41,421 nucleotides of DNA, taken from positions 1-41,421 of the IMG/VR virus record IMGVR_UViG_3300047300_000965; one strand, written 5' to 3'. This document shows positions 32,525-40,268 of this stretch, piece by piece; the stretch's first letter is position 1, and the number at the start of each line of letters is the position of its first letter. The notes under the pieces were generated by a model, which worked only from the letters and a program-made list of their open reading frames with translations, searched no databases and had not been told where the DNA came from. Origin of the DNA: a virus. The translations under genes and the position numbers were made by a program.

Positions 32525-32542
32525 GATAATGCAAGCATTATC
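32525..32542. promoter_or_regulatory. 18-bp perfect dyad, operator-like
   Basis: GATAATGC-AA-GCATTATC: two perfect 8-base inverted arms with a 2-base spacer, overlapping the stop codon of the 464-aa JAMM-like gene. The loop is too short for an RNA hairpin, so a dimeric DNA-binding protein is the likelier reader. A copy with one mismatch in the 14-base core lies at 36806-36819 in the noncoding region. Confidence 0.45.
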
Positions 32543-33932
32543 TTCCAAAATTAAATCCGCCTCCCGTAAGGAAGCCTCCGCCACCAGAAAGACCACCGCT
32601 GAACAGACCAGTTGTAGGGGCTGTGTAGTTTCCAGTCGGTGTGCTTACGGTGACTGTCTTTGGAGGAGTTCCGCCAGCCTTTCCTTTCGGCTCCTTGGGC
32701 GGTTCTGGGTCTGTAACCTTGGGTGGCTTGGGAGCCGCTGGCTTACGCTTTGGCTGACCGTCACCACCAGTCGCTCTCGTAGCAAGCCCATTGGCAGTCC
32801 TACCTGCTGGGATTGTGTCGCCGCTTGAATTGAGCGGTGTGACTCCCTTGGGAGGCTCCTGCCTTATCTCACGATAAATCTGCGTCCCAGTCTTGAAGTT
32901 CTTGGTTTCGGCACGGACGGCATCAATGGTTCCGCCGTTGGCGGCACGACCGACAGCCTCATAGCCCTTGGCGGGTTTGAACTCAAACTGGATGCCATAC
33001 TTGGCGAGGATGGCTTTCTGGTTAGCCGCCATCAGAGCAAGGCAATGCTGGCTATTGAAGAACTTGTCGTTGGTAGGAGGGTATCCGCCAGCGAGAACAG
33101 CAGACCCATACTTCATCACATCCCTGTTGGATGCGGCGATTTCCTTGGCGGCTACCTTCATCGCAATCTTGTTTTTGACCCACTTGTCGCCTCGTTCGTA
33201 TTCTTGGGCGAGACCACCAGCCTTGATGCGGAGCATCGCAAGTTGGCTATCGCTCAATGTGGCGTTGTTACCACGCATAATGTATGTGCCCTCACGACCT
33301 ACCGCTCTGGTTTCGAGGCGTTGGGTGGTTCCGTGGTTGCCGACATCGCCCTCCGAGAAAGCCAGTCCGTGAAGGCGGCTTCCTGCGTCATTGTATTTCG
33401 AGATGTCGCCATCCCGTCCGAGTTTCTTGTTATCGGTATCCCAGATTTCAGATGGGTGTGTGTGGGTCATAATGCCGTCTCTTGATACGGGCACTCCGTT
33501 CTTATCAAGTGGGTTGTATGTCATCACGCTTCCTTTTCCGCCCTTTTGAATTGAAATCAGTTCGCCGTTCTTGTCCCAAGTGATGCCATATTCCAGACCA
33601 TTGTGCGTCTCACGGTGTAGGAGACCGTCCTCAATGTTTTCACGGCTGTATCGTGAGTCCTTGCTGTTGTATTCGTCCTTGGGTGGCATCCCTGCATCAC
33701 GGCGAGCAAGATAATCGAATGCCGCCTCAACGCCACGGCGTTCCGCCTTGTTCAAATCCTTCTGGGCTTCCATATCGGTCGTATGAGCCTGTTTCGCCAT
33801 AGCGACAGCGGTATCGACTTGGTGCTGGTATTTGAAAGTTGTTTTGAGGTCTGTGACCTTTTCCTCACGGGCAAGCACATCGGATGCCCGAGCGGTCTTA
33901 CCATTACGCTTATCTCCTTCTTCCGTGGGCAT
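32538..33932 (-). CDS. JAMM-like metalloprotease-signature protein, second copy (464 aa)
   Basis: A 464-residue paralog of the 490-aa protein encoded just upstream; both start MPTEEGDKR and end in a Gly-rich ...F-x-TGGGFNF-x-R tail. Core motif: LEYG (Glu114), THTHPSE (His157-x-His159) and AFSEGD (Ser193-x-x-Asp196), which fits the JAMM/MPN signature E...HxH...SxxD that binds zinc in isopeptidases and in lambda gpK-like tail proteins. The stretch between HxH and SxxD is much longer here (33 residues) than usual. Residues about 345-445 are Pro/Lys/Gly rich and disordered. No NlpC/P60 domain follows. It sits between terminase and portal genes. Peptidase activity is inferred from the motif only. 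Confidence 0.6.
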   Translation of the reverse strand: MPTEEGDKRNGKTARASDVLAREEKVTDLKTTFKYQHQVDTAVAMAKQAHTTDMEAQKDLNKAERRGVEAAFDYLARRDAGMPPKDEYNSKDSRYSRENIEDGLLHRETHNGLEYGITWDKNGELISIQKGGKGSVMTYNPLDKNGVPVSRDGIMTHTHPSEIWDTDNKKLGRDGDISKYNDAGSRLHGLAFSEGDVGNHGTTQRLETRAVGREGTYIMRGNNATLSDSQLAMLRIKAGGLAQEYERGDKWVKNKIAMKVAAKEIAASNRDVMKYGSAVLAGGYPPTNDKFFNSQHCLALMAANQKAILAKYGIQFEFKPAKGYEAVGRAANGGTIDAVRAETKNFKTGTQIYREIRQEPPKGVTPLNSSGDTIPAGRTANGLATRATGGDGQPKRKPAAPKPPKVTDPEPPKEPKGKAGGTPPKTVTVSTPTGNYTAPTTGLFSGGLSGGGGFLTGGGFNFGR

Positions 33933-34139: not shown

Positions 34140-35612
34140 TTATCTTGTGAAGTTGAAGCCACCGCCCGTGACGAACGAACCTCCGCCAGATGAGAAGCCA
34201 GAGTTGTTTCCGCTTCCGCCACCGAAATCAATGACTGGGACTACGAACGGCTTACCGCCTACTACCGTAACTGACGGCTTGTCCTTGATTGTCACGGGAG
34301 GCTTTGCCCTCGGCTTTATGTCCGTTGGTTTTATCGGCTTGGGGGCGGGAGGTGGTGTCTCAACTTTTGGCTTTGGGACACGCTTACGCTTCCCGTCACC
34401 GCCAGTAACGGTTTGAGGTGAGCCACCGCTTGTGGTTGGGGCTGGTGAGGGTGCGGGGGTCGGCTTGGCTTTCTGAACTGGGATATGGTCTCCGTCTCTC
34501 GTGTAGCCACGGGGTAGGGTTGTGGAAGGATTTGGCATCGGCTGGTTGACCGTATCTGGTATGCCAGCCATCCTCACGACTCCGCCAGCAACCATCGTCA
34601 AGTCAGCCCTTCTGGCTGACGGAGGAAGGGCGTAATAGCCGTCTTGGCTTGTTGGCATCGATGTCTTGATTGCTTTTTCCATAGCCTCAAACCCCTCACG
34701 GGCTTTGAACTCGTATTGAACCCCATAACGCTGGCATATTCTTGCGTGTCCGATAGCCAGCATCGTTCCATATTTTGGGCTGTTGAACCAGTCCCCGCCA
34801 GCCTTGTAGTCAGAGGAGCGGTCGCCATACATTTGCAAATGCTCCGAAATCGCCCTCGCCTCTTTTGCCATAACGGAACAGGCGATTGAGTGTCTCTCTG
34901 ATGCAGATGAGGTTTTCTCGTAGATTTCTGCAAGCCTTCTGGTATCCTTGTCCGTGGACTTCTTCATATTTTCAAGAAGTCCTTGGGGCAGGGTTGCCCT
35001 GCCCTTAATCGAATAAGTCCCTTCACGGGCGACAGCCCTCATCTCCGCAAGGTCAAAAGTGCCAAAGAACTCAATGTCGCCCTTTGAAAAACTATGACCA
35101 AGCAACCTGTCATTGTTATCGGTAGGATGTGAGTGAGTCACAGTTCCTCCCTCCAACTGGCTACTGTGGGTCGAGTATGTAGCGACATTTGCTTTTTCTC
35201 CTTTATTGATGGCAATAAGTTCCCCGTTCTTATCGTAAGATGCGGCAAACTCAACGCCGTTGTTGGCGTTATCAAGCATCAGCGTCTCCTCAATAGCCTG
35301 CAAACTATGGCGAGATGTAGGGTCGTCCTTCTCGTTCTTTGGAGGATAACCAAGGTTTCGTCTGCGTTCGTAGTCAAATGCGGCTTCCAGCCCTCTGCGA
35401 TTAAGGACTTCTGGGTTTTTCAACTGCTCATCGGTCGGCTTGTCGGGTGAGTTGTCGTATGCTTTTTTTGCATCATCCAAAGCCAGCAAATACGCCGCAG
35501 TATTTGTATCCAATAGTTTCTTCAATTCTTGATACTCCGCAATACGCTTCTCCTCCGAAAGCACATCGCTGGCTGACCTGCCTGTGCGTTTATCCCCTTC
35601 TTCGGTAGGCAT
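34140..35612 (-). CDS. JAMM-like metalloprotease-signature protein, first copy (490 aa)
   Basis: A 490-residue protein. Start at 35612 (MPTEEGDKRTGRSAS) chosen because the paralog begins the same way. A charged helical N-terminal region (1-85, with RRGLEAAFDYERRRNLGYPP) leads to a domain with VEFA (Glu121), THSHPTD (His160-x-His162) and SFSKGD (Ser176-x-x-Asp179), matching the JAMM/MPN+ zinc motif with a 13-residue gap in place of the usual 7. A conserved RAVxREGTY follows. The last ~110 residues are Pro/Lys/Gly rich ending GGGSFVTGGGFNFTR. It follows the tRNA region and starts the cassette pair. Options include a virion-maturation peptidase or an enzyme that removes host ubiquitin-like tags. 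Confidence 0.6.
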   Translation of the reverse strand: MPTEEGDKRTGRSASDVLSEEKRIAEYQELKKLLDTNTAAYLLALDDAKKAYDNSPDKPTDEQLKNPEVLNRRGLEAAFDYERRRNLGYPPKNEKDDPTSRHSLQAIEETLMLDNANNGVEFAASYDKNGELIAINKGEKANVATYSTHSSQLEGGTVTHSHPTDNNDRLLGHSFSKGDIEFFGTFDLAEMRAVAREGTYSIKGRATLPQGLLENMKKSTDKDTRRLAEIYEKTSSASERHSIACSVMAKEARAISEHLQMYGDRSSDYKAGGDWFNSPKYGTMLAIGHARICQRYGVQYEFKAREGFEAMEKAIKTSMPTSQDGYYALPPSARRADLTMVAGGVVRMAGIPDTVNQPMPNPSTTLPRGYTRDGDHIPVQKAKPTPAPSPAPTTSGGSPQTVTGGDGKRKRVPKPKVETPPPAPKPIKPTDIKPRAKPPVTIKDKPSVTVVGGKPFVVPVIDFGGGSGNNSGFSSGGGSFVTGGGFNFTR

Positions 35613-35754
35613 TGTGGTGCGTGGTTTCCCGTAGTTTCTGCTCGTCCTTGGTCGCCTTGTCAATCGCCCGTAGAAGCCTTTTGAGCCTTGGGTGCGGTCT
35701 TGGGTTGTTCGTAACGCCCAAAGCCCGCCACGGGCTTGCCGTGCGGGCTGGTGA

Positions 35755-35828
35755 TGGCTGGGAAGGAGGGAGTCGAACCCACGCCCGAGGATTTGGAGAC
35801 CTCTGTGCTACCGTAACACTTCTTCCCA
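35755..35828 (-). tRNA. tRNA-Trp (CCA)
   Basis: A 74-base cloverleaf on the minus strand including encoded CCA. Acceptor TGGGAAG pairs with CTTCCCA; D-arm GTGTTACGGTAGCAC; anticodon stem-loop GAGGT-CTCCAAA-TCCTC with anticodon CCA; T-arm GTGGG-TTCGACT-CCCTC; discriminator G, then CCA. There are single U-U mismatches in the anticodon and T stems. It is followed by a GC-rich hairpin (AGCCCGC...GCGGGCT) that may be a processing or termination signal. Confidence 0.88.
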
Positions 35829-36228
35829 AAAAGGATGGCTTGCTGGACGACCCCATAAACCCAAGTTAGTCCCGAGGGACTCGTCTCGATGTCGGGCGGG
35901 TGATTTCGCATCCCGCTCCTTTCGTCAGCCAAGCCAAAGAGTTACCAGAGAGAACCACAGGTCGAGTTGCAATTCTCGCCCCTCTCTGGCGATGTCGCAG
36001 GGTTTCCCTGCAACACCGATTGTTACACCCCACCTCACGGAAGGGAGACTTGGTATTCGCACCTCTGCTACTTCCAGAACCCGTCTTGGTGGTTAGCCAA
36101 GCACTCGCCAGAAGGTCACCGCAGGATACTTCAAACGCCCGATGGGTTCGGAAGCCCAAGGGACGCAACCAACCACACGACTTACTCCGCTATGTTCCAG
36201 CGGGTCGCTCGGGGTCATTGCCCCGAAA
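35829..36228. other. Gene-free inter-tRNA segment with hairpins
   Basis: The 400 bases between the two tRNA genes have no credible gene. They hold several helices: TGGCTTG/CAAGCCA (35836-35842 with 35930-35936) closing a 100-base domain that includes AGTCC-CGAG-GGACT (35868-35881); CCAGAGAG/CTCTCTGG (35945-35952 with 35982-35989) with an inner CGAG/CTCG; GCAGGG-TTT-CCCTGC near 35997; CTTGG-N7-CCAAG near 36084; and TCGGGG/CCCCGA (about 36208-36225) just beyond the 3' end of tRNA-Thr. The density suggests structured RNA; the strand is not resolved. Confidence 0.5.
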
Positions 36229-36303
36229 TGGAGGTATTGGACGGAGTTGAACCGACAACCGCCTGTTTACAAAACAGGTGTTCTGCCATTGAACTACAAT
36301 ACC
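36229..36303 (-). tRNA. tRNA-Thr (TGT)
   Basis: A 75-base cloverleaf on the minus strand with encoded CCA. Acceptor GGTATTG/CAATACC is perfect; D-arm GTTCAATGGCAGAAC; anticodon stem-loop CCTGT-TTTGTAA-ACAGG with anticodon TGT; T-arm GTCGG-TTCAACT-CCGTC; discriminator T, then CCA. A perfect GC-rich hairpin follows its 3' end. Reads ACA and possibly other Thr codons. Confidence 0.92.
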
Positions 36304-36500
36304 GAAAGGATTATCTCGTGCCTTTGCAGATGGGGGCTTACGCCGTATTCCCACCCGCCCTGTCTGCACGAGCGTCTTGGGTTCGTAGTCGATGCGTTCA
36401 TCTCCCGCCGTCTCTTTCCCCGCTTTGGACACGGGGTGATAGCCATTGGCAACCAGCGGGGTTTCTACGAACTTGCATAAAGTCAAAGAGCAAAAATGGA

Positions 36501-36645
36501 TGGCAGTCAACTGTTCGGCATCTGGTTTCTACCTCGGCTTTGTCCGCCTTTGTCGCTTACCACCCGTGAGGGCTGTGCTTGGGGCTACCGTGGCTTGCCT
36601 TTGCAAGAACCGCCTTTCGGGCGGGAGCGTTTCAGTTGACTGCCA
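36501..36645. ncRNA. Structured RNA domain closed by a 13-bp helix
   Basis: TGGCAGTCAACTG (36501-36513) and CAGTTGACTGCCA (36633-36645) form a perfect 13-bp inverted repeat across 119 bases. Inside are CCC-GTGA-GGG (36563-36572, a GNRA loop if read on the plus strand), CTTGC-CTTT-GCAAG (near 36594) and CCGCC-TTTCG-GGCGG (near 36611). The 3' arm can also pair as TGCCAAG/CTTGGCA (about 36641-36659), a possible switch. No credible gene overlaps. Confidence 0.5.
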
Positions 36646-36805
36646 AGTCGCTCTTGGCAACTGCTGACTTACAGAGCGTCTTTCCGAAGATGATGTTTGG
36701 TTCATCTGTCGTATCCTGCCGACTTTAAGAAGTCGGGTCTTACGGGCGGCGGTGTATCCAGCGATTACCAAAGAGCGATAAGAGGAATGTAGCCAAGTGT
36801 TTGGC

Positions 36806-36819
36806 TAATGCAAGCACTA
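36806..36819. repeat. Second copy of the TAATGCAAGCATTA dyad
   Basis: TAATGCAAGCACTA matches 13 of 14 bases of the core of the dyad at 32527-32540. It is followed by an AT-rich stretch (TTTTCAAAAAAGATTAA) and then the 5' strand of the 36839-36965 element, so it is well placed to control transcription of a plus-strand RNA. Confidence 0.4.
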
Positions 36820-36838
36820 TTTTCAAAAAAGATTAAGG

Positions 36839-36965
36839 GGCGACAGACACACTTCCTTGCTTCCCCCGCCGTGGTTCCAGCACGGTGACCCCGTAAAGGG
36901 CTTGCGGTTTCCGCTCGGATGCTCCGTGTGAGAGCCGTGGAGTTCAAGTCCCCACGCCTGTCGCC
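36839..36965 (+). ncRNA. 127-nt multibranched, tRNA-like element
   Basis: GGCGACAG (36839-36846) pairs with CTGTCGCC (36958-36965). Within: CCGTG-GTTCCAG-CACGG (36869-36885), a 7-base anticodon-like loop; GCGG-TTT-CCGC (36904-36914); GCTC-N7-GAGC (36921-36935); and CGTGG/CCACG (36935-36939 with 36952-36956) around a GTTCAAGTC loop resembling a T-loop. The last hairpin lies next to the closing helix as in tRNA and tmRNA, but there is no D-arm and no CCA, so it is not a normal tRNA. Strand chosen from the T-loop-like sequence. Confidence 0.4.
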
Positions 36966-38151
36966 AGACCGTCTCCCGTGGCTTCTGGGAGGCTTTTAAG
37001 CCACAGGGGGTGATAGTCCCTGTCCCGTTGGTATCGGGCTTCCCAGAGGCTCCGTGAGCCAATCCTTGTCCGTAAAGTGGTGGTCTGGGGCAACTGCTCG
37101 TCAGCAGGTTAGCCAGACCATTTCAACCAGCGACTCCCCTCATTCACCTTCCCTGTCCCTTGCGGGCATCGGGTCGTTCTTGGGGGCGATAACTACGGGT
37201 AGTATTTGGTGGTGGAGATGCAGGAGATTTCTCTCCCCCGTGGGTTTCCCCACAGACCTCCGTTTGCTACTTGCCCGCTGGATTGAAAGTGAATTGTTGG
37301 TAGTCAGAGGTCTCACGCCAGTATCAAGGAGGGACTGGACGGCTGATTTCTCGCACCGCCGAGTTCTTTTGCCAACAAAGTGAATGCAGGAGCGTTTTTT
37401 ATGCCCGTGAGGGCGAGCCGTTGATTACGGGGGTAAGGTCAGACCCCGACCTGCAAAGTGGACTACCGTCAGCCATCTGGTGCTTCAAGGCTCAACCTTG
37501 TTTCGCACCCGACTCATCGCCCGTGGACTTATTTGCTCGGCACTTGACCGATTTTCCCTCGATGGGGATTGCCACTTTCCGTATTCCCTCGGCTCGCTCT
37601 GCGGCTCGTGTTTTTGTAGCATACAATTTTGGTCTGCATCACTTTGCCCGTATCGACTCTTTCACATCCTGCTCTCCCCTTGCGGGGCGGTCGGCAAGGA
37701 TGTCTGGATAACTGTCTCTGCCCTTACGAGGCTTTGACACCAGAACACCCGCTGTGATGTTCGATTACTTCCGAGGATAACGGAGTCCTCCATTTCGATG
37801 GAGGCGATTTGGCTGACGGTAGAAAGTAAAGTGGAGCGATGTGACTGGTTTGGCTACCAGCCCCCGACCGCAGTCGGGTTGCACAGGCGAGGTCAGTCTC
37901 GCACACCGCATAAAGTGGTATCGGGTAGCACCTCCACGCCTCTCCGCCCGTCTGGGCATCTGGACGCTTATGCGTATGCTTGCGAGGCTTCTCAACCTCT
38001 CCCGATAGTTTGAAAGTGAACTGGGTGGTGGCAGGGATGCTCCTGTTCCGCTTGCCCCGCTTGAAGCGAGGGGCGGACATCGGTTGTCCTCTCCGACCGT
38101 GGGGGGCTTAAATCTTCCCCCTCCCAGTAGTTGTTTGTTTTCTACCGTCAG
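36966..38151 (+). ncRNA. Large ornate noncoding RNA candidate
   Basis: About 1.2 kb without credible genes. Helices include TGGTCTGG/CCAGACCA (37081-37088, 37113-37120) with inner CTGCT/AGCAG; GCCC-GTGA-GGGC (37403-37414); nested GGTGC/GCACC and CAAGG/CCTTG (37479-37509); ACATCCT/AGGATGT (37664-37703) with inner CCCC/GGGG; CCTCCAT-TTCG-ATGGAGG (37787-37804); a perfect 13-bp long-range helix (37813-37825 with 38139-38151) that encloses CTGGT/ACCAG, CCCGAC/GTCGGG, TATCGGG/CCCGATA and CGGTTG/CGACCG. AAAGTG occurs seven times on the plus strand (37074, 37286, 37377, 37455, 37828, 37912, 38013). Purine-rich linkers, UUCG and GTGA loops and G-U pairs favour the plus strand, though two GCAA loops would fit the minus strand. 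Comparable known RNAs: GOLLD and ROOL. Confidence 0.5.
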
Positions 38152-38384
38152 ACTGAATGTCAAAGATGTTCCGAAAGAGCGATTGGTTTGAGGAGTGGAA
38201 GTGGTTTCAGTTGGTGAGTAGCGTTACCGCTACCCGCTTCCCTTAATCTCCTGCCCGTTGCGTGTCGGGCGTTCGCTTTTCGACTTTTGAAGAACAATCG
38301 GTCGTTGCTTACCGATGAGAGAAGTAGAACACGGTTTGCTTCTCTATGCAAGCGGTTTCGTAAACTATTTTTTGGTAAATACGC
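38152..38384. other. Gene-free hairpin-rich stretch downstream of the ncRNA candidate
   Basis: No credible gene. Hairpins continue: GTAGCG-TTAC-CGCTAC (near 38218; GUAA loop if read on the minus strand), GCCCG/CGGGC (near 38252), ATCGGT/ACCGAT (near 38298) and AGAGAAG/CTTCTCT (near 38319). A TTGACA is on the minus strand at 38158-38163. It may be the 3' part of the same plus-strand RNA. Confidence 0.4.
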
Positions 38385-38425
38385 AAGTCGTTGTGTATCA
38401 ATGACTTACGAAACAAACTTTTTTT
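38385..38425 (+). terminator. Possible terminator for a plus-strand transcript
   Basis: AAGTCGTTG (38385-38393) and CAATGACTT (38399-38407) form a 9-bp stem, with one G-U pair only if read on the plus strand, around a 5-base loop. Seven T residues follow at 38419-38425, 11 bases after the stem. The gap is longer than classical. It would stop a plus-strand RNA just before the terminase gene's 3' end. Confidence 0.4.
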
Positions 38426-38429
38426 CGAC

Positions 38430-40268
38430 TTATGTATCTGACGCTGGCTTTTCGCTCTCCGCTTTCGGTTCTTCCACCGTTTTCGGTGCTACATTCAGCA
38501 AGCCAAACGCCAATGTCGGCACGAACTGCATCACTTCACAGTCCCACAAGTGGTTCGCTCGCTTACCAATTCGTTTCCATTCTGGTTTTCCATTCGTGTT
38601 CATCGCACGGACTTCGCTCTCCATCTGCTCCAAGTATTCTTGTCCGCTATCAGAAGCACAAGTGTGCTTGCCCGTTCTACGCAAGCGAGAGAGTTGGTCT
38701 TTCAATGCAAGATTGGAGAAGTGATGCACACGCACAACACCGCCGCCAGCATTGACCAATCTCGCTGGTGCGTAAACTTTGGATACATTCTTCACGCCCT
38801 GTGCCGTGGTGATACGCCACGGGAAGTCATAGCGTTGGTCACCACGCAACGCAGTCCATTTGTGGATGCCGCAGTTTCGTATCACATCATCGAACTGGTC
38901 ACCGCAGTCCACATACACGAACGCTGGGATGACATCGTTCGTTTTCGCCATAGCATCGACATCCTCCCAAGTCTGCACAAACTTCCATTTCACGAGACGG
39001 CTCCTGCCGTCCATAGCCCACGAACGGATGAGACAGTAGAAGCCAGTTCTCTGCACATCGACCGTCATAAACCTTGCCCGTATCTGGTTCGTCTTTGTCC
39101 TGTCCGTATGGAGTCTGCGGGTCAGAGGGTCTATCAGAGCCTCGTCCTCCCAGCCGTCACCCTGCTTGTAGTCACCGACCGACAACTGGGAGTCAAAGGC
39201 ATCTGGCTCGTCCGACCAAAACTTGGCTCGCTCCTTCTGCATAAAGATGCGGAGGGGGTTCACATCCCCCGTAAGGTCTGCAATCGTCTTGGCTCGGAGA
39301 TACTTCTCGGCGATGGCTCCCCACGGGCGGGCACACACGGACTCCCAACTGAACCCGACATTCTCGGGTGAGGCGGTCGGTGTGGTCTGGGCGTAGAAGC
39401 CCTTGGCGTTCATCTCGTCTCGGGACGCTCGGCTGTCTCGGAACTGGTGCTTGCACCCCTCGCACTCGTATGTCGTCTCCGTGCGAATTACCGAGTAGTC
39501 GTAGTCGCCCTCATAGTTCTTGGCGTGTTCGGGTATCCGTATCTGGTCGAATGTCCAAGGCTGTCTATGTCCGCAATGCGGACACGAGAACGACCATTGC
39601 CGTCTGTCCGTAGTAAGCCATATCTCCTCCGTCTCGTCCTCGGCGTAGCCTCCTTGGCTCATAAGGATACGCTTACCAAGCCAGCCGAACGAGGTCACAC
39701 GGGCGGAGGCTTCCGCCAAGTGCCCCTTGGGATAGAGCCAAGTCTCGTCAGCCACAAGCCAGCGGATGGAACGGCGTTGGAGGTTCTTCTCGTTGAACGC
39801 CCCGAGACACCAGAAGGTCATCTCGTCCGTCTGGACTGTCGTGCCCTTCTTGCCTTGCTCCTGCGAATTGAGTTTGGCTTTCACGGGTGGGCAATTGTCC
39901 CATAGCACCCGCAACCTACTCTGCATCCAGTCGGACGCATTATGGTCTGTATCGTTGAGGTAGAGCGTTGGGGCGGGCTGACGGGCGATGATAAAGCACG
40001 ACAGCAACTCCGCCATCAAGGACTTGCCAGACTGAATGGGGGCGATGATGACCGACAATCTAATCTCGGGGTCAACACACGCCCGTAGTGGCTCTATGAG
40101 CCACGGCGTATCCTGCACTCGAAACCCAGATGGCATCGGCGAGAACGGTATCTGCTTCACATTCCGAACCAGCCAATCGACCACATCCTCCCTGTCGTCT
40201 GGCTTGAAGATGCGGCGGAGCCTCGCTTCCAACTGGTCTGCGACCCTACGCTTCTGGGACGAACTCAC
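38430..40268 (-). CDS. terL: Terminase large subunit, lambda GpA family
   Basis: A 612-residue packaging motor and endonuclease that translocates DNA into the prohead and cuts it. Walker A is APIQSGKS (76-83); Walker B with the catalytic carboxylate is RWLVADE (169-175); a Cys pair CPHC (229-232) and CEGC (269-272) suggest a zinc finger, as in GpA proteins. The nuclease domain shows FMTVDVQRTGF (Asp404), VYVDCGDQFDD (Asp454) and a late HLWDCE, which are the expected metal-binding acidic residues. Length agrees with lambda gpA (about 640). It overlaps the small subunit gene by 4 bases. The GpA family usually cuts at cos or related sites; no cos site was identified by eye. Confidence 0.93.
   Translation of the reverse strand: MSSSQKRRVADQLEARLRRIFKPDDREDVVDWLVRNVKQIPFSPMPSGFRVQDTPWLIEPLRACVDPEIRLSVIIAPIQSGKSLMAELLSCFIIARQPAPTLYLNDTDHNASDWMQSRLRVLWDNCPPVKAKLNSQEQGKKGTTVQTDEMTFWCLGAFNEKNLQRRSIRWLVADETWLYPKGHLAEASARVTSFGWLGKRILMSQGGYAEDETEEIWLTTDRRQWSFSCPHCGHRQPWTFDQIRIPEHAKNYEGDYDYSVIRTETTYECEGCKHQFRDSRASRDEMNAKGFYAQTTPTASPENVGFSWESVCARPWGAIAEKYLRAKTIADLTGDVNPLRIFMQKERAKFWSDEPDAFDSQLSVGDYKQGDGWEDEALIDPLTRRLHTDRTKTNQIRARFMTVDVQRTGFYCLIRSWAMDGRSRLVKWKFVQTWEDVDAMAKTNDVIPAFVYVDCGDQFDDVIRNCGIHKWTALRGDQRYDFPWRITTAQGVKNVSKVYAPARLVNAGGGVVRVHHFSNLALKDQLSRLRRTGKHTCASDSGQEYLEQMESEVRAMNTNGKPEWKRIGKRANHLWDCEVMQFVPTLAFGLLNVAPKTVEEPKAESEKPASDT

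Follow-up and report, generated by a model that had tools for sequence, protein, structure and literature searches.

A mosaic array of conserved structured RNA domains, many of them tRNA-like, between the terL and portal genes of related metagenomic phages

Results

A noncoding region downstream of terL

A preliminary description of the 41,421-nucleotide (nt) viral stretch IMGVR_UViG_3300047300_000965 from IMG/VR (positions 1 to 41,421, hereafter the window) singled out, as a candidate giant ornate RNA, a 2.6-kb noncoding gap between terL and tRNA-Trp that contains tRNA-Thr. The gap, read on the minus strand and so co-oriented with terL, lies between two structural genes, terL and portal, with the portal and capsid genes downstream. 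The boundaries given for terL and the two tRNAs were correct (Table 1), and the view that the gap holds no credible gene other than tRNA-Thr agreed with two checks: the longest open reading frames (ORFs) were not above those of dinucleotide shuffles (200 residues in the window, equaled by 8% of shuffles, with relatives unremarkable), and substitutions had no codon-phase asymmetry (max/mean 1.2 vs 1.8 in terL). We therefore found no coding signal in the gap; a protein-coding frame conserved across homologs, named beforehand as evidence against an RNA, was looked for and was not there.

At the Rfam gathering thresholds the only matches in the window were the two tRNAs, and extending the search to E=10 added one spurious microRNA match. 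GOLLD, ROOL, OLE, and HEARO, the models proposed for comparison, gave no cmscan match at gathering (window plus 12 relatives) or up to E=10 (window region and relative L042), and cmscan also excluded an rRNA identity. Since Rfam finds only both tRNAs, the region is not a detectable member of these four families. The part of the giant-RNA proposal that holds is that a very large, conserved, structured phage RNA lies beside tRNAs; its anatomy points to a mosaic array of exchangeable domains, many of them tRNA-like, rather than to one fixed ornate fold.

Conserved structure on the minus strand

Searches with terL in IMG/VR led to about 30 distinct phages, from which we obtained about 16 array sequences, all from metagenomic contigs. 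The array-bearing clade (the window phage, L019, L020, L022, L023, L024, L028, L031, L034, L037-L039, L042, and L044-L046) has 1.9–2.9 kb of noncoding DNA after terL wherever the contig is long enough, and the arrays share patchy 70–97% identity in largely the same order. A single fold from a full-length alignment of all arrays was abandoned, as the arrays were too mosaic. In 150-nt segments with at least four homologs, many consensus folds reached z-scores of -5 to -11 with 6–12 covarying pairs, as compared with -1.6 to +1.8 and 0–3 covarying pairs in the terL coding control.

The clearest case is the module we designated M1, in which seven sequences fit a four-helix structure with 97.7% pairing and 11 pairs changed on both sides. 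A covariance model from these seven sequences recovered six further divergent copies (E-values 5e-13 to 4e-17), all in the same kind of array and none elsewhere in 398 kb. With 13 sequences, 96.6% of cells were paired, 83 of them with double changes, and the covariation score was 0.673, vs 0.201 when shuffled (a control that does not correct for relatedness) and at most 0.10 in slid registers (which keep relatedness). Module M8 was 98.9% paired with 13 double-changed pairs (covariation 0.304 vs 0.135), and for neither M1 nor M8 did any of 500 shuffles reach the observed score, so that the proposed check for covarying helices in homologs was passed. Covariation in M6 was consistent and weaker than in M1 or M8. 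Covariance models with short calibration placed M1 and M8 (model R2) once per array; elsewhere in about 400 kb they found only a lone M8 in phage L026. Wobble counts in the helices were 24 G.U and 0 A.C, indicating that function resides in sense-strand RNA (the minus strand of the window). The gap is a conserved structured RNA of this strand, and its covarying secondary structure in noncoding DNA makes it a large structured phage noncoding RNA in the general sense.

The case for structure rests on comparison, since single-sequence folding energy was unexceptional: the mean z-score of single 150-nt segments was -1.21 in the region vs -0.91 for random segments of the same phage. Hairpin density alone is thus no more than chance, and we dropped these z-scores as evidence; what had been called a hairpin-dense region is structured by comparative evidence, not by its density. 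Both perfect 13-bp inverted repeats reported earlier are present (36501–36513 with 36633–36645, and 37813–37825 with 38139–38151). The first closes a domain, and its counterpart in L046 is paired with a different sequence. The second competes with a third perfect copy, as 37810–37822 also pairs with 37463–37475, a pairing kept with four different sequences in the window, L022, L042, and L046. These two perfect long-range pairings of 37810–37822 are mutually exclusive, and both can still form in L022; judged from sequence, they are a possible structural switch.

Closed cassettes joined by a repeated spacer

Closed domains follow one another along the region, linked by CTTTA(T/C) spacers. Across the arrays CACTTT occurs 57 times vs 8.5 expected and CTTTAT 42 times vs 4.0 expected, and 59% of spacer-to-spacer segments vs 29% of random segments have a closing span that covers 0.9 or more of their length. 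Where a block of homology between phages stops, its end lies within 10 nt of ACTTT more often than expected (22% vs 7%, with 0 of 1000 permutations as high). Since homology between phages breaks at the spacers, cassettes have been gained, lost, and moved. For example, the terL genes of L031 and L034 are almost the same, yet the two phages differ by whole cassettes with edges exactly at CTTTA(T/C), and in L046 a domain homologous to window module M7 fills the M2 slot.

Two further contigs bear on this turnover. The lone M8 (L077 1335–1515; contig of L026, 41216–41354) is 87% identical, intergenic, and flanked on both sides by ACTTT, in a phage with no gap after its terL. L075 1–1070 is a recombinant array, the first 400 nt being 95% identical to L022 and most of the rest 99% identical to L042.

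tRNA-like cassettes

In the relatives' arrays a T-arm motif (5-bp stem with a TTCRANN-like loop) was found 33 times in sense and once in antisense orientation, as against 1 per shuffled set; genuine tRNAs account for some of the 33. Many of these T-arms have a perfect 7-bp acceptor partner upstream, 100–190 nt away for the tRNA-like ones. Two cassette families, A and B, share a layout consisting of a CTTTA(T/C) or TTAC leader, a 7-bp acceptor, two bases, a D-arm (ACTC..GG..GAGT), a 78–171-nt insert in place of the anticodon arm, the T-arm, the acceptor, and a tail that is usually followed by (C)TTT. The tail is CCA in family B and others, and GCT and variants in family A. Eleven of the relatives' cassettes have tRNA shape, with a 7-bp acceptor, D-arm, and T-arm; these helices are 95.7% paired, nine pairs are double-changed, and covariation is 0.434 vs 0.122. 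Real tRNAs excepted, the cassettes are not decoding tRNAs, the anticodon arm with its 7-nt loop being replaced by the inserts, which are themselves conserved and folded. When searched on its own, L031 9156–9282 exceeded the Rfam tRNA threshold (32.8 vs 29 bits, in a 591-base search). One slot has two kinds of occupant, tRNA-Phe in L031 and L034 vs a family A cassette in L028, and their 3' halves are homologous.

A separate module at L031 9613–9699, with homologs in L022, L028, L034, L037, L039, L042, and L044, is strongly conserved and has a perfect T-arm (GGAGGTTCGACTCCTCC). ARAGORN called it tRNA-Ser or tRNA-Phe in some arrays; it fell below the Rfam tRNA cut-off and had weak similarity to tRNA-Sec.

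The modules of the window are less tRNA-like, having only the 7-bp closing helix and an N-Y-CA tail; a strict search for acceptor, T-arm, and NYCA found nothing in the window. The ends of several resemble that of tRNA-Thr (CAATACC-TCCA-TTTC): M1 ends in ACATCGC-TCCA-CTTT, M2 in ACGGTAG-TCCA-CTTT, M4 in CCAACAA-TTCA-CTTT, the M5 hairpin in CCAGACC-ACCA-CTTT, and M7 in ACTGCCA-TCCA-TTTT, and in each of these, as in tRNA-Thr, the 7-bp closing helix is complete when G.U is counted as a pair. Across the arrays as a whole, 46% of N-Y-CA(C)TTT sites vs 12% of random positions had a perfect helix of this kind, and 21% vs 0.8% had the helix together with a U-rich leader.

A hairpin and BoxA motifs after terL

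The motif GYTCTTT occurs in the arrays 49 times in sense and 5 times in antisense orientation (1.36 per kb vs 0.08 per kb in flanking genes). In nearly all arrays its first copy lies about 90–175 nt after terL, usually behind a hairpin that has kept its pairing despite changes of stem sequence. The phage host is probably a member of the Verrucomicrobiota, as judged from prophage sequences, and about half of the rRNA-operon (rrn) leaders examined from this phylum have GYTCTTTGA roughly 100–260 nt before 16S, often after a hairpin (Verrucomicrobium BvORR106 could not be used, as its contig ends at 16S). In its motifs the array leader qualifies as an rrn-type BoxA antiterminator, its hairpin and GYTCTTTGA being like those of the host phylum; the BoxA of E. 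coli is a binding site for NusB/NusE (PMC5725501).

Distribution

The array-bearing phages group together in a terL tree whose deepest fork is weakly supported. The more distant phages L047-L049 have just 164–200 bases after terL, and in the Verrucomicrobiota prophages (terL about 41% identical) the interval from terL to portal lacks such a region. INPHARED contained no phage with a close terL, and blastn against INPHARED phages gave no match. Searches of 384 genomes of the host class, with stricter filters, found no true module. We dismissed two matches as chance: an R1 match in the Verrucomicrobiota genome L128, which falls in an apparent glmS coding sequence, and a pattern match in L062, inside the portal gene. 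We found no prior description of such a system in the open-access literature (subscription papers and preprints outside PMC were beyond reach).

We also considered the gap after terL in a second clade (L025, L027, L029, L036, L040, and L050) as a homologous giant RNA and rejected it, since the gap consists mostly of reverse-strand protein genes with little covariation. In the sister clade (these six and L033) the first 60–90 nt after terL contain a hairpin and BoxA-like GYTCTTT. About 300 nt of noncoding DNA come next, and most members then have reverse-strand genes of 194–414 residues; this clade may hold a shorter related RNA.

Features of the locus and its neighbors

Between the RNA region and the connector/portal genes of the window are two ORFs of 464 and 507 residues (32538–33932 and 34140–35663) without a Pfam match. 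They look like paralogs, since both match the same protein region in relatives.

Table 1. Features of the window locus and positions of family A and B cassettes in relatives. Cassette boundaries in the window derive partly from predicted structure; positions in families A and B are counted from the terL stop.
Feature	Position	Strand	Remarks
terL (GpA family)	38430..40268	-	Gene upstream of RNA; Pfam GpA_ATPase/GpA_nuclease
Leader hairpin ATCGGT(AAGCAACG)ACCGAT, then BoxA-like TGTTCTTCAAA	38286..38316	-	Homologous hairpin with other stem sequences, and GTTCTTTGA, in nearly all relatives
Alternative partner of M2 5' strand (second inverted repeat)	38139..38151	-	L022 can form the pairing too
Domain D1, closed by TATCGGG/CCCGATA, then CCA-CTTT	37911..38017	-	Closing helix re-sequenced in L020, L034, L037
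M1, four-way junction, 7-bp closing helix GCGGTGT/ACATCGC, then TCCA-CTTT	37829..37919	-	Covariation, 13 homologs
M2, closed by CTACCGTCAGCCA/TGGCTGACGGTAG, then TCCA-CTTT	37459..37822	-	Four different paired closing sequences (window, L022, L042, L046)
M3, closed by TGCAGG/CCTGCA, then TTCA-CTTT	37376..37459	-	87% identical L044 cassette directly follows M1
M4, closed by TTGTTGG/CCAACAA, then TTCA-CTTT	37290..37378	-	97% identity to L022
M5; last hairpin with 7-bp stem GGTCTGG/CCAGACC, then ACCA-CTTT	37078..37285	-	
Core of M6	36837..36968	-	Most arrays have a homolog; weak but consistent covariation
BoxA-like CGCTCTTTGG	36766..36777	-	
M7, closed by first 13-bp repeat (TGGCAGTCAACTG/CAGTTGACTGCCA), then TCCA-TTTT	36497..36645	-	Homologous domain in another slot, L046
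BoxA-like GCTCTTTGAC	36482..36491	-	
M8	36342..36480	-	3' extension helix to about 36304; lone copy in L026 genome
tRNA-Thr(TGT)	36229..36303	-	Acceptor, then TCCA-TTTC
3' noncoding block between both tRNAs	35829..36228	-	73–75% identity to L020
tRNA-Trp(CCA)	35755..35828	-	Rfam match
Family A cassettes	L042 785, L023 925, L046 1509, L038 597, L044 550, L028 606, L020 1102, L022 1459, L039 806		
Family B cassettes	L031 1314, L039 989, L020 1369, L034 784, L023 1259		

Discussion

Our best explanation, to which we give a probability of about one half, is an antiterminated array from which exchangeable tRNA-like RNAs are cut out in the way that tRNAs are matured from their precursors. The region would be an RNA-only segment of an operon, made up of tRNAs together with cassettes that are tRNA-like or closed in some other way, and it would be transcribed from the minus strand along with the late genes. 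The hairpin and BoxA just after terL, together with the further BoxA copies, would load the host NusB/S10 antitermination complex, and polymerase would thereby, we infer, escape Rho termination over 2–3 kb of untranslated RNA and still reach the portal and capsid genes. Cleavage by host tRNA-maturation enzymes, at acceptor-like helices and at CCA-CTTT junctions, would release many stable tRNA-like RNAs that each show a different domain at the anticodon-arm position. Least certain is their role; they might serve as decoys for, or inhibit, host factors involved in handling or attacking tRNAs or RNA, and such a role would account for the rapid exchange of cassettes. More tentatively, the array might amount to a natural "tRNA-scaffold" library, in which varied RNA domains on tRNA-shaped and tRNA-processed scaffolds are swapped between phages cassette by cassette, made by means of rRNA-type antitermination, and used to block or bind host factors such as RNA-targeting defenses.

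Several points weigh against processing into tRNA-like RNAs and against antitermination. Outside tRNA-Thr and tRNA-Trp the window cassettes have no canonical T-arm, several tails are TCA or GCT instead of CCA, and at many spacers a 7-bp closing helix could not be detected. The first BoxA copy of the window (GTTCTTC) is imperfect, BoxA function can vary with context (PMC5725501), and the host assignment depends entirely on prophages whose terL is about 41% identical.

The next candidate, which we consider rather unlikely, is one giant ornate RNA that remains intact and works as a scaffold or multimer in the manner of GOLLD and ROOL, its domains being swapped like building blocks. It would suit the size, phage context, tRNA neighbors, and extensive conserved structure, as well as the long-range closing helices with their possible alternative pairing, and tRNAs sometimes lie in GOLLD linkers (PMC12286853). 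However, nothing in Rfam matches, cassette order and content differ at near-identical terL, which is not the pattern of a fixed fold whose 3' half is conserved, M8 stands alone elsewhere in another phage, and the spacers resemble tRNA leader/trailer junctions. It is improbable, too, that the region is a long untranslated leader regulating the portal and capsid genes in cis, by antitermination or as an RNA switch, and structured only for that purpose: such a leader would account for the BoxA elements, the mutually exclusive pairings, and the position between terL and portal, but 2–3 kb of changing cassettes far exceeds what antitermination requires, M8 also occurs apart from this operon, and L047-L049 manage without a large gap.

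The last two alternatives are very improbable. A decaying tRNA array, with relic tRNAs and hairpins that have no function and survive by chance, would fit the interspersed genuine tRNAs and the T-arms for which the remainder of a standard tRNA is often missing, but compensatory changes throughout M1, M8, and the acceptor, D, and T arms show selection for pairing, and the inserts at the anticodon-arm position are conserved and folded. A DNA-level element, made of recombination or packaging sites that fold, attC-like, as single-stranded DNA, draws on the mosaic exchange at a short repeated spacer and on the adjoining terL, but runs counter to the strand asymmetry typical of RNA (G.U to A.C 24:0; sense to antisense 33:1 for T-arms and 49:5 for BoxA) and to the real tRNAs within the same array.

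A 2–3-kb class of structured phage RNA without an Rfam family would by itself add to the very few giant phage RNAs known, and it bears on the frequent siting of such RNAs beside tRNA genes. If the proposed array of processed tRNA-like RNAs is correct, a chain of tRNA-like cassettes swapped at a fixed spacer, with an rRNA-type antiterminator ahead, would be a new way to encode and diversify functional RNA.

Comparison with known systems

GOLLD and ROOL form RNA nanocages. Like the arrays, they are sizeable, structured noncoding RNAs that occur in phages and prophages, frequently close to tRNAs; the arrays differ in being two to four times longer, in having no Rfam match, and in being mosaics of cassettes exchangeable via CTTTA(T/C), with tRNA-like modules and BoxA motifs. 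The likeness to tmRNA lies in the retained acceptor, GG in the D-loop, T-arm, and CCA, with a larger structured insert in place of the anticodon arm. However, tmRNA matches in L031, L020, and L039 were far below threshold (best 18.3 bits vs 47 at gathering), several different elements stand in tandem, the L031 cassette has A3-U70 and not the alanine G3.U70 pair, and no tag ORF was identified in the arrays, the inserts not having been searched for one. With phage tRNA arrays our arrays share tandem RNA genes, short spacers, encoded CCA, and genuine tRNAs among their members, but most cassettes here are not decodable tRNAs and carry the long inserts at the anticodon-arm position. Finally, the order of hairpin and GYTCTTTGA is that of the BoxB-BoxA antiterminators of rRNA operons, as in Verrucomicrobiota rrn leaders, whereas here it is repeated several times within a phage noncoding RNA, far from rRNA genes.

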